Source of the DNA: Chloroflexus aggregans DSM 9485
GTDB lineage: Bacteria > Chloroflexota > Chloroflexia > Chloroflexales > Chloroflexaceae
NCBI RefSeq assembly: GCF_000021945.1
Contig: NC_011831.1
Coordinates: forward strand, 2,059,353-2,123,352
Reading direction: 5' to 3'
Length of the DNA: 64,000 nt
The notes below the pieces were generated by a model. The model saw only the letters and a program-made list of their open reading frames with translations. It was not told where the DNA came from and did no database searches. A program made the translations under genes and the position numbers. Numbering within the stretch: the stretch's first letter is position 1; every line of letters starts with the position of its first letter. Shown here piece by piece: positions 11,940-55,372 of the stretch.

Positions 11940-14900
11940 GTCATCGCGAGCGCAGCGAGACATCTTCTAAACGGAAGATTGCTCAGGCGCTAACGCGCCC
12001 TCGCAATGACAAAAACCACTGTTAGGTCGAGCGCAGCGCTGTCCCCCACGAACCAACCACTGTCATGGCGAGCGCAGCACTGTCATGGCGAGCGTAGCGA
12101 GACATCTTTCCGACATTACGAGTGACGATTGCTCAGGCGCTGGCGCGCCCTCGCAATGACAAAAACCACTGTTAGGTCGAGCGCAGCGCTGTCCCCCACG
12201 AACCAACCACTGTCATGGCGAGCGCAGCACTGTCATGTCGAGCGCAGCACTGTTATGGCGAGCGCAGCACTGTCATGTCGAGCGTAGCGAGACATCTTTC
12301 CGACATTACGAGTGACGATTGCTCAGGCGCTAACGCGCCCTCGCAATGACAAAAACCATTGTTAGGTCGAGCGCAGCACTGTCCCCCACGAACCAACCAC
12401 TGTCATGGCGAGCGCAGCACTGTCATGGCGAGCGTAGCGAGACATCTTTCCGACATTACGAGTGACGATTGCTCAGGCGCTGGCGCGCCCTCGCAATGAC
12501 AAAAACCACTGTTAGGTCGAGCGCAGCGCTGTTATGGCGAGCGTAGTGCTGTCATGGCGAGCGCAGCACTGTCATGGCGAGCGTAGCGCTGTCATGGCGA
12601 GCGCAGCACTGTCATGTCGAGCGTAGCGAGACATCTTTCCGACATTACGAGTGACGATTGCTCAGGCGCTAACGCGCCCTCGCAATGACAAAAACCATTG
12701 TTAGGTCGAGCGCAGCACTGTCCCCCACGAACCAACCACTGTTATGGCGAGCGCAGCACTGTCATGTCGAGCGTAGCGAGACATCTTTCCGACATTACGA
12801 GTGACGATTGCTCAGGCGCTAACGCGCCCTCGCAATGACAAAAACCACTGTCATGGCGAGCGCAGCGCTGTTATGGCGAGCGTAGCGCTGTCATGGCGAG
12901 CGCAGCACTGTCATGGCGAGCGCAGCACTGTTATGGCGAGCGCAGCACTGTCATGTCGAGCGTAGCGAGACATCTTTCCGACATTACGAGTGACGATTGC
13001 TCAGGCGCTAACGCGCCCTCGCAATGACAAAAACCATTGTTAGGTCGAGCGCAGCGCTGTTATGGCGAGCGTAGTGCTGTCATGGCGAGCGCAGCACTGT
13101 CATGGCGAGCGCAGCACTGTCATGTCGAGCGCAGCGAGACATCTTTCCGACATTACGAGTGACGATTGCTCAGGCGCTGGCGCGCCCTCGCAATGACAAA
13201 AAACCACTGTTAGGTCGAGCGCAGCACTGTCATGTCGAGCGTAGCGAGACATCTTTCCGACATTACGAGTGACGATTGCTCAGGCGCTAACGCGCCCTCG
13301 CAATGACAAAAACCACTGTTAGGTCGAGCGCAGCGCTGTTATGGCGAGCGTAGCGCTGTCATGGCGAGCGCAGCACTGTCATGTCGAGCGTAGCGCTGTC
13401 ATGGCGAGCGCAGCACTGTCATGGCGAGCGTAGCGAGACATCTTTCCGACATTACGAGTGACGATTGCTCAGGCGCTAACGCGCCCTCGCAATGACAAAA
13501 ACCATTGTTAGGTCGAGCGCAGCGCTGTCCCCCACGAACCAACCACTGTCATGGCGAGCGCAGCACTGTTATGGCGAGCGCAGCACTGTCATGTCGAGCG
13601 TAGCGCTGTCATGGCGAGCGCAGCACTGTCATGTCGAGCGTAGCGAGACATCTTTCCGACATTACGAGTGACGATTGCTCAGGCGCTAACGCGCCCTCGC
13701 AATGACAAAAACCACTGTTAGGTCGAGCGCAGCGCTGTTATGGCGAGCGTAGCGCTGTCATGGCGAGCGCAGCACTGTTATGGCGAGCGTAGCGCTGTCA
13801 TGGCGAGCGCAGCACTGTCATGTCGAGCGTAGCGAGACATCTTCCCGACATTACGAGTGACGATTGCTCAGGCGCTGGCGCGCCCTCGCAATGACAAAAA
13901 CCACTGTTAGGTCGAGCGCAGCGCTGTTATGGCGAGCGTAGTGCTGTCATGGCGAGCGCAGCACTGTCATGGCGAGCGCAGCACTGTCATGGCGAGCGCA
14001 GCACTGTCATGGCGAGCGTAGCGAGACATCTTTCCGACATTACGAGTGACGATTGCTCAGGCGCTAACGCGCCCTCGCAATGACAAAAACCACTGTTAGG
14101 TCGAGCGCAGCGCTGTCCCCCACGAACCAACCACTGTCATGGCGAGCGCAGCACTGTTATGGCGAGCGCAGCACTGTCATGGCGAGCGTAGCGCTGTCAT
14201 GGCGAGCGCAGCACTGTCATGTCGAGCGCAGCGAGACATCTTTCCGACATTACGAGTGACGATTGCTCAGGCGCTAACGCGCCCTCGCAATGACAAAAAC
14301 CACTGTCATGGCGAGCGCAGCGCTGTCCCCCACGAACCAACCACTGTCATGGCGAGCGCAGCACTGTTATGGCGAGCGCAGCACTGTCATGTCGAGCGCA
14401 GCGAGACATCTTTCCGACATTACGAGTGACGATTGCTCAGGCGCTAACGCGCCCTCGCAATGACAAAAAAACCACTGTCATGGCGAGCGCAGCACTGTTA
14501 TGGCGAGCGTAGCGCTGTCATGGCGAGCGCAGCACTGTCATGGCGAGCGTAGCGCTGTCATGGCGAGCGCAGCACTGTCATGGCGAGCGCAGCGAGACAT
14601 CTTCCAAACGGAAGATTGCTCGGGCGCTAACGCGCCCTCGCAATGACAAAAACCACTGTTAGGTCGAGCGCAGCGCTGTCCCCCACGAACCAACCACTGT
14701 CATGGCGAGCGCAGCACTGTCCCCCACGAACCAACCACTGTCATGGCGAGCGCAGCACTGTCATGTCGAGCGCAGCGAGACATCTTTCCGACATTACGAG
14801 TGACGATTGCTCAGGCGCTAACGCGCCCTCGCAATGACAAAAAAACCACTGTCATGGCGAGCGTAGCGAGACATCTTCCAAACGGACGATTGCTCAGGCG

Positions 14901-15221
14901 CTAACGCGCCCTCGCAATGACAAAAACCACTGTTAGGTCGAGCGCAGCGCTGTCCCCCACGAACCAACCACTGTCATAGCGAGCGCAGCACTGTCATGGT
15001 GAGCGCAGCGAGACATCTTTCCGACATTACGAGTGACGATTGCTCAGGCGCTAACGCGCCCTCGCAATGACAAAAACCACTGTCATGGCGAGCGCAGCAC
15101 TGTTATGGCGAGCGTAGCGCTGTCATGGCGAGCGCAGCACTGTTATGGCGAGCGCAGCGAGACATCTTTCCGACATTACGAGTGACGATTGCTCAGGCGC
15201 TGGCGCGCCCTCGCAATGACA
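11940..15221. repeat. 3.3-kb array of about 20 palindromic elements interleaved with 20-bp tandem subrepeats
   Basis: The whole gap between the DA1-like and esterase genes is repetitive. About twenty copies of an element of roughly 85-90 bp start TGTCATGGCGAG and end CTCGCAATGACA, imperfect inverted ends. The interior contains GAGACATCTTTCCGACATTA and GATTGCTCAGGCGCT. Between them are variable numbers of the 20-mer TGTCATGGCGAGCGCAGCAC (variants at positions 8, 15 and 19), many copies of GGTCGAGCGCAGCGCTG and a spacer GTCCCCCACGAACCAACCAC. Three copies (about 11940, 14590, 14858) carry a different centre, CTTCCAAACGGAAG-like, that completes a hairpin. Short open frames inside are repeat translations, not genes. 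11809-11939 holds nothing recognised. Confidence 0.95.
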
Positions 15222-37304: not shown

Positions 37305-37358
37305 CACGAGACAATTGTGAGGAGTACGAGTAGAATGCTGCCAACGGGCCGCCGCGGG

Positions 37359-37862
37359 CGCCGGGAACCCACCGCCGCCATTGGGCCGCACGGCCGCCGG
37401 GAACCCACCGCCGCCATTGGGCCGCACGGCCGCCGGGAACCCACCGCCGCCATTGGGCCGCACGGCCGCCGGGAACCCACCGCCGCCATTGGGCCGCACG
37501 GCCGCCGGGAACCCACCGCTGCCATTGGGCCGCACGGCCGCCGGGAACCCACCGCTGCCATTGGGCCGCACGGCCGCCGGGAACCCACCGCCGCCATTGG
37601 GCCGCACGGCCGCCGGGAACCCACCGCCGCCATTGGGCCGCACGGCCGCCGGGAACCCACCGCCGCCATTGGGCCGCACGGCCGCCGGGAACCCACCGCC
37701 GCCATTGGGCCGCACGGCCGCCGGGAACCCACCGCCGCCATTGGGCCGCACGGCCGCCGGGAACCCACCGCCGCCATTGGGCCGCACGGCCGCCGGGAAC
37801 CCACCGCTGCCATTGGGCCGCACGGCCGCCGGGAACCCACCGCCGCCATTGGGCCGCACGGC
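37359..37862 (+). repeat. Fourteen exact-length 36-bp tandem repeats upstream of, and in frame with, an RmlD-like gene
   Basis: The unit starts TTGGGCCGCACGGCCGCCGG and ends GAACCCACCGCCGCCA. Copies differ almost only by CCGCCA/CTGCCA. Because 36 is twelve codons, the forward frame shared with the downstream gene reads RREPTAAIGPHG fourteen times; other frames are open too because the DNA has no stop-like triplets. An ATG at 37335 with GAGGAG upstream could start translation through it, but the downstream gene has its own start and ribosome site. A perfect 22-bp palindrome (37851-37872) closes the array. Confidence 0.95.
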
Positions 37863-37872
37863 CGTGCGGCCC
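37851..37872. other. 22-bp perfect palindrome at the end of the 36-bp array
   Basis: The arms GGGCCGCACGG and CCGTGCGGCCC are exact reverse complements with no loop. It joins the last repeat to the leader of the RmlD-like gene, 17 bases before its ATG, so it could form a cruciform or an RNA hairpin close to the ribosome site. Confidence 0.7.
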
Positions 37873-43575: not shown

Positions 43576-45474
43576 TTACAATAACATGATCGCCGTGATC
43601 GCTACGACGACGAGAAACAGCACAGCTACCACCACAAGCGCGAGCCGTTCTAGATTCAGCAGCGATACGGTGCTGACCAGCTTCTCATTTTCACCTGACC
43701 CGATCACATACAGACGACACTCTTGGTCGTCAAGCATGCCGCTGATCTCGGTCATCATGACACCCCTGATCGTCAACTTCGCCTGTATCGGGCGACCGTG
43801 CTCACCCGCTTTAGCAATCGCCTCCTCGATCAAACGGCTAAGCGGCCCGACACTATGCCAGCGGCTATCGTAGAGATCGATCTCACTTTCATATATCTCA
43901 CGTGCCTGCTGCTTAAGCAATCGCTGTACTTGCTGCGGCAAATCTTCGCTATCATCATCGTTCTCAAGCTCGACAACCCACCGCGACCACGTAAAGAACT
44001 TCTCTTCAACCAGATTGCCATTGCCATCACATGTTTCGCACCGCACCCGTTGATATCCTTTACAACGGTCGCATGGTTGTTCGACCGGGTCAGGTTCTCC
44101 ACGACGCGCTTTCGGTTTGATCACACCTTTCCCCTGGCACTGCGGACACACCACTTGGCCGGAACCTTGACAACCGGTGCAGGTAAAAAAGCGGCGTGAG
44201 CCGGGTAAGATCACCTCACCGCCGGGTTCAGATGTGAAATCGCGGTGAACCGGCAGCGGCGTTGCCCATACATCTAATGCCCGCTCAGCCACCGGACGTT
44301 CATCATTCCGCATCGGACGAGACCGTAATTGCGGTGGCGAACGTTGCTCGTAGAGCACTTTCAGCGTGTAGAAGTAGATGTTATAACTGGCGATTAGCTC
44401 AAACTCGATCAGTTGACCGAGTGATGGGCGACGAAATGGTTTCTGGCGGCTCCAACGGTTGAGCCACTTACGCAGATAGTCACGGCGATGAAAGGTATCC
44501 GCCCGTTTGCGTGCCTCGGTCAGAAAATCGTTAAATTGCTCAGCAAGATTGGCTAACTCAGAACTGAGGGCCAATTCGAGTGGATTCTCAAACCACTCGG
44601 CACAATCCTCCCAACGCGACTCTTCCATATCGATCGTATTCTGATCGAGGAGAGAACGTAGGGCGAGTCGTAACGCATTTGCAGCCGCGCTGGCGGTACT
44701 GAAGCGCAGATTCGGTTGGGGCGAGAGCATGCGTAACAACACCCGTTCGGCGAGCACACAAGCTTGTGGTTTATCGTGCAAGTCAAGATCGACGATCATG
44801 CCGGTGGGTGGTAGCTCACCACTAAGCAAGTGATAAGCGACTGCTCCAAGACTGTAAATATCGAGCGAGGGGTGAGCTTCAGCCTGAGCGAGTTTCAATT
44901 CAGGCGCTGAATATGGTGTGAGATAATCGGCTTCACTTAGCATACTCCAATCGAGTGGAGCATCAGGCACGGCAGCGAGGCTTAGGTTGGTCAGGTACGC
45001 ATTCCCCTCCGGGGTTACCAGAATATTCGCCGGCTGGACATCACGATGAACAACTTGCTGCTCGTGGAGATAATCGAGGACGGCAGCGATTTGGGTGATA
45101 ATGCGTACCGCTAATGTCAGGTCCGGTGGGCCTTCTTGCAATATCTCATTCAGTGAGCGGCCGGCGATGTACGGCGTGACCATATAATCGCCGTAGTGTT
45201 CATCATGACCGGCGTCGATCACCGGTAGTAAGTGGGAATGACTCAAGCTTGCAGCGAGCCGAGCGGCTAATTGAAATCGGCTGTTTGAGATCCAATCGTG
45301 GCGGCGCAATATGAAAACGTAGACCGGGCGGTTGAGGGTCTGATGGGTAGCGCGATAGATCAGGGAAAGCTCGTCTTGCCCAATCTGTTCATGCAAGCGA
45401 TACTCACGAAGTTCAAGCTCCTGATCGGCAGGAGGCCATGGTTCGCCGTGGGCGAAAGAGTGTAGGTTACTCAT
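43576..45474 (-). CDS. Tail-anchored pseudokinase fused to a DnaJ-type zinc-finger domain
   Basis: Protein of 632 aa. Residues about 20-275 have the Hanks-type kinase fold: HRDVQPANILV (143-153), APE (190-192) and the DIYSLG helix are present. Key catalytic parts are missing: the Gly loop is IGQDELSLIY, the beta-3 Lys is replaced (VYVFILRR), and DFG is NLS (163-165). A helical linker follows, then four CxxC pairs (432/435, 443/446, 468/471, 479/482) in CTGCQGSG, CPQCQGKG, CDRCKGYQ and CETCDGNG, the zinc-finger pattern of DnaJ without a J domain. A beta-rich region and one terminal helix (about 611-632) anchor it with everything else in the cytoplasm. Function unknown; probably a scaffold or chaperone adaptor. 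Confidence 0.88.
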   Translation of the reverse strand: MSNLHSFAHGEPWPPADQELELREYRLHEQIGQDELSLIYRATHQTLNRPVYVFILRRHDWISNSRFQLAARLAASLSHSHLLPVIDAGHDEHYGDYMVTPYIAGRSLNEILQEGPPDLTLAVRIITQIAAVLDYLHEQQVVHRDVQPANILVTPEGNAYLTNLSLAAVPDAPLDWSMLSEADYLTPYSAPELKLAQAEAHPSLDIYSLGAVAYHLLSGELPPTGMIVDLDLHDKPQACVLAERVLLRMLSPQPNLRFSTASAAANALRLALRSLLDQNTIDMEESRWEDCAEWFENPLELALSSELANLAEQFNDFLTEARKRADTFHRRDYLRKWLNRWSRQKPFRRPSLGQLIEFELIASYNIYFYTLKVLYEQRSPPQLRSRPMRNDERPVAERALDVWATPLPVHRDFTSEPGGEVILPGSRRFFTCTGCQGSGQVVCPQCQGKGVIKPKARRGEPDPVEQPCDRCKGYQRVRCETCDGNGNLVEEKFFTWSRWVVELENDDDSEDLPQQVQRLLKQQAREIYESEIDLYDSRWHSVGPLSRLIEEAIAKAGEHGRPIQAKLTIRGVMMTEISGMLDDQECRLYVIGSGENEKLVSTVSLLNLERLALVVVAVLFLVVVAITAIMLL

Positions 45475-45810
45475 AGCTGCCTCAGCGTATCGTGTGAATA
45501 GAACGCTTGTTCATAATCTTATTGTAGTTGCCTTGTCAACCGTATGGTTATGTCAACGACTCCACATTTCCGGTGAGTGATTCATCACCACAAGTAGCTA
45601 CTTATCACCATTTTTCTGCACCGCGTCATGGTATACTACGACTGTGCCGGTTGGTGGCGGGCATCCTGTGCGATCGGACACGCGATGACGATCATCCGTG
45701 TCCTCCCTGCCAGTCAGGATCTCTGCCTCCTCTTTCTACCCCGTGCGGCAATCCTCAATGCCGCTTCCTCGCGCTTGCCCCATTGCCCGCCACCCGGTTA
45801 ACGACCCCGC
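45475..45810. other. Intergenic region, 336 bases, with an orphan promoter-like box
   Basis: On the plus strand TGGTATACT at 45629-45637 matches the extended -10 form seen elsewhere, yet no plus-strand gene follows; only antisense of the protease gene lies downstream. A small unannotated RNA is possible. The open frames here have no recognisable protein features. No convincing terminator was found after the protease gene. Confidence 0.4.
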
Positions 45811-54229: not shown

Positions 54230-55372
54230 CCGGTCGCACCACCGCCACCGGCGTGGAGCAGCGCCGCACCCGCCGCCCCCACCATCACCGGCACACCGGC
54301 CTACCGCAGTGCTGCGCTGCCCCCGCCGCCCCCACCACCAGCCTACCGCAGCACCGCGCCGCACCCAATCCCCACCGCCACCGGCCTACCGCCGCGCCGC
54401 GCTGCACCGGCGTGGAGCAGCACTACGCTGCACCCCGGCCTCCCCACCGCCACCGGCGTGGAGCAGCACTACGCTGCACCCCGGCCTCCCCACCGTCACC
54501 GGCGTGGAGCAGCACTACGCTGCACCCCGGCCTCCCCACCGTCACCGGCGTGGAGCAGTGCTGCACCCGCCGCCCCCACCATCACCGGCACGCCGGCCTA
54601 CCGCAGCACTGCGCTGCCCTCGCAGCCCCCACCACCGGCCTACCGCAGCACCGCGCCGCACCCAATCCCCACCGCCACCGGCTTACCGCCGCGCCGCGCT
54701 GCACCGGCGTGGAGCAGCACTACGCTGCACCCCAGCCTCCCCACCGCCACCGGCGTGGAGCAGCGCCGCACCCGCCGCCCCGGCCTACCGCAGCACCGCG
54801 CCGTCACCGGCAGGCCCCACCGCCACCGGCGTGGAGCAGCGCCGCACCCGCCGCCCCCCACCATCACCGGCACGCCGGCCTACCGCAGCACTGCGCTGCC
54901 CTCGCAGCCCCCACCACCGGCCTACCGCAGCACCGCGCCGTCACCGGCAGGCCCCACCGCCACCGGCGTGGAGCAGCGCCGCACCCGCCGCCCCCCACCA
55001 TCACCGGCACGCCGGCCTACCGCAGCACTGCGCTGCCCTCGCAGCCCCCACCACCGGCCTACCGCAGCACCGCGCCGTCACCGGCAGGCCCCACCGCCAC
55101 CGGCGTGGAGCAGCGCCGCACCCGCCGCCCCCCACCATCACCGGCACGCCGGCCTACCGCAGCACTGCGCTGCCCTCGCAGCCCCCACCACCGGCCTACC
55201 GCAGCACCGCGCCGCACCCAATCCCCACCGCCACCGACCTACCGCCGCGCCGCGCTGCACCGGCGTGGAGCAGCACTACGCTGCACCCCAGCCTCCCCAC
55301 CGCCACCGGCGTGGAGCAGCACTACGCTGCACCCCGGCCTCCCCACCGTCACCGGCGTGGAGCAGTGCTGCT
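54230..55372. repeat. GC-rich complex repeat array, 1.1 kb
   Basis: A mosaic of short modules such as CACCGGCGTGGAGCAGC, CTACGCTGCACCCCGGCC, CCGGCCTACCGCAGCACCGC and CCCACCATCACCGGCA. A 46-bp unit recurs around 54430-54550 and 55270-55360; a larger 137-bp unit is repeated three times starting near 54831, 54968 and 55105. All three plus frames stay open for hundreds of codons and give His/Pro/Ala-rich strings, the sign of repeat DNA rather than a gene. The flanks (54090-54229 and 55373-55533) show no recognisable gene. Confidence 0.9.

Follow-up and report, generated by a model that had tools for sequence, protein, structure and literature searches.

What does a bacterial protein do that joins a kinase fold without its catalytic residues to a DnaJ-type zinc finger and ends in a membrane helix? 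The question is raised by a gene of Chloroflexus aggregans DSM 9485, whose genome is a single contig of 4,684,931 bases, within the 64,000-nucleotide stretch of DNA that was analysed, referred to as the window herein. The gene, which we call form A, is an exact open reading frame at window positions 43576-45474, as proposed in the first-pass annotation, and lies on the minus strand; all coordinates given below for parts of A are on that strand. It encodes 632 residues from an ATG at 45474, which is preceded by GAGG (45480-45483), a likely ribosome binding site by its sequence. The protein is composed of a kinase-like domain (residues 21-275; 44650-45414), a first scaffold part of helices and long strands (residues 292-425; 44200-44601), a zinc finger with four CxxC pairs (C432-C482; 44029-44181), a second scaffold part that completes the sheet round the finger (residues 487-601; 43672-44016) and a C-terminal membrane helix (residues 608-631; 43582-43653). 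That this helix is a tail anchor, as had been claimed from the first reading, agrees with its hydropathy (a 19-residue window with a mean of 3.3 that ends one residue short of the C-terminus), with the modelled helix at residues 608-631, and with the orthologues, since in 38 of 39 no more than 6 residues separate the membrane helix from the C-terminus, and the single exception sits on a truncated contig. Orthologues of A were found in 40 of the 41 genomes of the order Chloroflexales that were searched, one of them a kinase-less relative. That A is found across the order and evolves under strong purifying selection shows that it is no chance open reading frame.

The same genome also encodes a full-length paralogue, B (G000:C1:165883-167733), which matches residues 24-614 of A at 31% identity and has its parts in the same order (kinase, zinc finger, membrane tail). 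Judged by its main motifs, the kinase of B is live-looking: VALK, the αC Glu, HRD and VIDFG are all kept, though the catalytic-loop Lys site holds Ser or Ala. A and B occur together in 39 of the 41 order genomes searched, the two genomes without both copies being G027, which has one kinase-less copy, and G040, whose assembly is 80% complete. It had initially been suggested that A is a lone membrane-bound capture or assembly factor controlled by a dead kinase. The architecture agrees with this suggestion, but the second, live-looking copy in each genome had been missed, and because of this twin A is more likely to act as one member of a kinase/pseudokinase pair than as a capture factor on its own. 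A and B are probably a regulator and its enzyme.

To describe the kinase domain, 32 A orthologues from the 41 genomes were aligned with 21 copies of B, and a second, separate A set of 39 full-length sequences was used. The Pfam profile Pkinase (PF00069) matches residues 25-224 of A at 84.4 bits against a cut-off of 31.7, which places the domain in the protein kinase superfamily, and Foldseek gave TMt values of up to 0.78 to solved kinases (0.77 to PknA), with PknA, PknB, PknE and StkP as the nearest solved folds. The Gly-rich loop has degenerated to GQDELS (residues 32-37; 45364-45381), where the second Gly is Asp or Glu in all A and Gly in all B (21/21). In the β3 strand, VYVFILRR, the position of the catalytic Lys is Phe54 (45313-45315), a column that holds His, Ala, Phe, Ser, Gln, Tyr or Arg in the orthologues and never Lys (0/32 A, 21/21 B). 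The αC Glu position, Ala70 (45265-45267), is mostly Ala in A and never Glu (0/32 A, 21/21 B), and DFG is replaced by NLS (residues 163-165; 44980-44988), a site that in A is mostly NLS or has Gly for Asp, with Asp163 present in 0/32 A and 21/21 B. HRD (residues 143-145; 45040-45048), within the catalytic loop HRDVQPAN, is invariant in the alignment, and APE (residues 190-192; 44899-44907) is intact. None of the three residues expected of an active Ser/Thr kinase, the β3 Lys, the αC Glu and the DFG Asp, is therefore found in any of the 32 A sequences. A substitute Lys for β3 was sought across the N-lobe columns of the 39 full-length sequences and none was found, Lys reaching at most 15% at any column, so the original call of a pseudokinase stands. 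Having a kinase fold together with a conserved loss of catalytic motifs, A can be called a pseudokinase on strong sequence grounds.

The first-pass annotation had also offered ATP sensing as a possible function of the dead domain. This is not supported, given the loss of the same three residues and a catalytic-loop Asn that is kept in only 26 of 39 A. Similar considerations bear on a reading in which A has a different catalysis or binds nucleotide independently of metal, as with SelO or as suggested for the DLHK/DYD families. The HRD Asp, invariant in A and B (39/39 in the full-length A set), the partly kept Asn and an invariant D175 in the short activation segment of the same 39 sequences would suit such an activity, and related pseudokinase families have been modelled as binding ATP via arginines (PMC12599244). 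However, the β3 position of A has no conserved cation, the catalytic-loop Lys site is Gln in 31 of 32 A, and the metal-binding Asp is lost, which leaves this reading highly improbable.

The dead domain, which is the slowest-evolving part of A, is by its pattern of constraint evidently in use. In twelve orthologue pairs, the dN/dS of the A kinase region was mostly 0.03-0.16 where computable, and was usually the lowest or nearly the lowest among four regions, with the zinc-finger region changing faster than the kinase region in most pairs. Mean identity of the kinase domain was 63% for A versus 52% for B, and was higher for A in 184 of 190 genome pairs. That the dead copy of a domain should be held more tightly than the live-looking one is difficult to account for unless A has a fixed binding partner.

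The C-terminal half of A had been read as a DnaJ-type zinc finger without a J domain, and both parts of this reading were borne out. The four CxxC pairs (C432/435, C443/446, C468/471 and C479/482) stand in the DnaJ order, and all eight Cys are invariant across A and B. The DnaJ_CXXCXGXG profile (PF00684) matches residues 432-486 over all 65 profile positions at 23-26 bits, below its cut-off of 32.7; genome-wide, A ranks second for this profile, the first being the sole protein with both a J domain and a zinc finger. The BSD2 profile (PF25436) matches A at 24.0 bits, below its cut-off of 27, and passes with the kinase-less relative in G027 at 32.1 bits. A Pfam search of A gave no match to the J domain (PF00226), which places A outside the type A DnaJ/Hsp40 proteins, and six J-domain matches lie elsewhere in the genome. 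A third, weak DnaJ-type cysteine-rich match was seen at G000:C1:24512-24610, within a 961-aa open frame. An AlphaFold2 model of residues 290-606 (pLDDT 91.5, pTM 0.80) opens with helices and continues in long curved strands, between which the finger is inserted; the full-length model (pTM 0.49) gives no placement of the kinase domain versus the rest. In this half of the protein a clear structural match was obtained for the finger alone, to BSD2 (VIA; Z 6.7 over 59 residues at 3.8 Å) and to DnaJA2 (Z 4.4). A structure search with the scaffold minus its finger returned weak cystatin/monellin/NTF2-like arrangements (Z about 3) that may mean nothing. A general role as a Rubisco or photosynthesis factor was rejected because Herpetosiphon, a chemoheterotroph, carries the protein.

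These matches bear on a possibility close to the initial suggestion, that A, tethered to the membrane, works by itself as a holding chaperone or assembly factor, with the pseudokinase as a protein-binding arm unrelated to B. The finger is structurally nearest to BSD2, and ZnJ6, a J-less thylakoid protein, shows both a holding and an oxidising activity (PMC7865324). Relatives of the zinc module without a kinase are present in other Chloroflexota families and in G027, a genome of 3.1 Mb from the same order in which neither fused form survives and a single kinase-less version of 353 aa, with a membrane tail, remains (L116:6754-7812). As G027 keeps this copy only, the zinc module can be useful alone, which counts against a partnership, and the genome serves as a natural experiment on the function of the isolated module. 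A chaperone acting alone, however, would leave its co-retention with B unexplained, as well as the finding that the dead kinase is the most constrained region while the zinc-finger region evolves faster, and we consider it somewhat unlikely.

The origin of the two copies was addressed with trees of both halves. A tree built from the C-terminal part separates A (91/91) from B (98/96), each as an order-wide group, and has the kinase-less relatives found in other families of the phylum as its outgroup. The copy from G027 is placed inside A, with weak support and at the end of a long branch. No match was found in the genomes sampled from the class but outside this order. The simplest history would be that a J-less zinc-finger protein was fused to a kinase, that the fusion was duplicated, and that catalysis was then lost in A. 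The duplication probably took place before Chloroflexales diversified, after which B would have kept the catalytic residues that A lost. The kinase-domain tree gave an unresolved three-way split, with A not joined to B over other kinases and two B rows in the 'other' group, and it neither confirms nor contradicts this history. Kinase-less relatives from other Chloroflexota families (L107-L115, L117, L118) have about twice as many CxxC pairs and share a C-terminal motif, IPYTxVxYRYxxxxYxLYVYD; this motif and the C-terminal strands may resemble eukaryotic SSUH2, a lead on which the literature searched shed no light. Clear Chloroflexales-type A genes were also found in records titled Singulisphaera (L152) and Gracilibacteria (L145), which are probably mislabelled or mixed metagenome bins.

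If A has a fixed partner, the back face of the N-lobe is where contact might be expected. PknB and PknD are activated via N-lobe dimers (PMC3601408), and the MviN pseudokinase forms a dimer of this kind, whose contacts, L750 and D793, are equivalent to the Leu and Asp of other bacterial kinases (PMC12599244). In a profile alignment to PknB (1o6y), Leu47 (45334-45336) and Asp87 (45214-45216) of A fall on Leu33 and Asp76 of the PknB dimer face. Both residues are present in 32/32 A, while B has Leu or Ile at the first position and Asp at the second in 20/21. The PknB numbering of these residues is assumed here, and is consistent with a catalytic Lys at 40 and an αC Glu at 59. Around Leu47 and Asp87, A hardly varies at T46, R49, P84, V85, G89, H90, D91 and G95, positions most of which are variable in B, and this points to a constrained back face that is A's own.

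Together with the retention of both copies and the tight constraint on the dead domain, the dimer-face residues and this A-specific surface lead us to favour, tentatively, a role at the membrane for A as B's non-catalytic partner, acting through the N-lobe dimer face. In such a mechanism A, a dead Ser/Thr kinase homologue, would be fixed by its C-terminal tail to the cytoplasmic face of the membrane, where A and B would lie side by side and pair by the N-lobe back face as in PknB and MviN. A would keep the kinase of B active (or inactive). Both zinc-finger modules would hold client proteins at the membrane, and client load would thereby be coupled to phosphorylation by B; the holding of clients near the membrane is suggested by analogy with J-less ZnJ6. 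Several findings weigh against A-B pairing: equivalents of Leu47 and Asp87 are common also in homodimer-forming kinases, in this genome A and B are separated by 1.9 Mb, with no conserved neighbours in common, and, as noted, the kinase tree does not join them. A membrane stress sensor, in which client binding by the zinc modules would shift the A-B dimer and with it the phosphorylation output of B, seems to us unlikely. A loose comparison is Ire1, whose kinase dimers signal unfolded protein.

MviN provides the precedent (PMC12599244) for another role, that of a docking platform which is phosphorylated by B or another kinase and recruits an FHA protein to the membrane. FHA domains are available, with 13 matches in the genome, one of them about 3.4 kb from B, and an FHA/winged-helix gene is found near B in 9 loci. 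All of these loci are in the window's family, however, the FHA gene is not near A, and a conserved Thr-rich tail was not found in A, so that a docking role appears quite improbable. The genes around A and B gave no order-wide functional hint. An S41 protease, RsmE and ManA adjoin A only in part of the family and a MoxR ATPase adjoins B only in Chloroflexus; as these neighbours are patchy, they imply no partner, and operon logic was rejected as a guide. Within the window's family (G000:C1:161211-167733, L038-L043, L049), B stands in a block with another Ser/Thr kinase, the FHA/winged-helix gene, aroA and a galE-like gene, with the MoxR ATPase after B in Chloroflexus, and this block is a possible signalling cluster. 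A defence system was likewise rejected, since the matches from PADLOC and NCBIfam (PD-T4-6, mad6) reflect a generic kinase domain, the NCBIfam score being far below cut-off. A plasmid search for signs of plasmid spread gave no match.

The favoured reading, with A as the non-catalytic partner of B, can be set beside several known systems. MviN of M. tuberculosis, of the family ActPs3, is like A a membrane protein with a dead kinase fold that keeps the N-lobe dimer Leu and Asp, but it no longer has HRD and is fused with a lipid flippase (PMC12599244), whereas in A HRD is intact and the fusion is with a J-less zinc finger. Members of ActPs3 have lost HRD as well as the Lys and DFG, and the HRD Asp found in every full-length A sets it apart from them. 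The DLHK bacterial pseudokinases resemble A in keeping HRD without the β3 Lys and DFG Asp; unlike A, with its zinc finger and a tail anchor in 38/39 orthologues, they reportedly have no membrane helices and carry helicase/DNA2 domains (PMC12599244). BSD2, the best structural match, and ZnJ6, which is associated with the thylakoid membrane (PMC7865324), share with A four CxxC motifs and the absence of a J domain, but they have no kinase domain, and the finger of A sits inside a separate alpha/beta scaffold. The receptor Ser/Thr kinases PknB, PknE and StkP have the nearest solved kinase folds and an N-lobe dimer face, but A has lost their catalytic residues and ends at its membrane helix with no outer sensor domain. 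In the literature searched, which covered few subscription journals, we found no paper that brings together kinase signalling and a J-less DnaJ-type zinc finger, and no bacterial pseudokinase in this fusion and paired setting.

Known partners are rare among bacterial pseudokinases. Throughout the order, each genome keeps a dead form of the architecture together with a live-looking one, the dead domain being under the tighter constraint, and the role of a dead bacterial kinase thereby becomes directly testable with two reconstituted proteins. The pair also links kinase signalling with J-less DnaJ-type zinc fingers.

Elsewhere in the window, 14 near-identical 36-base repeats at 37346-37864 run in frame, with a 12-aa unit (GRREPTAAIGPH), and directly precede an open reading frame resembling a dTDP-rhamnose reductase. 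A large complex tandem-repeat array at 11977-15221 consists of nested 20-base units over 3 kb, and a second large complex tandem-repeat array lies at 54294-55365.
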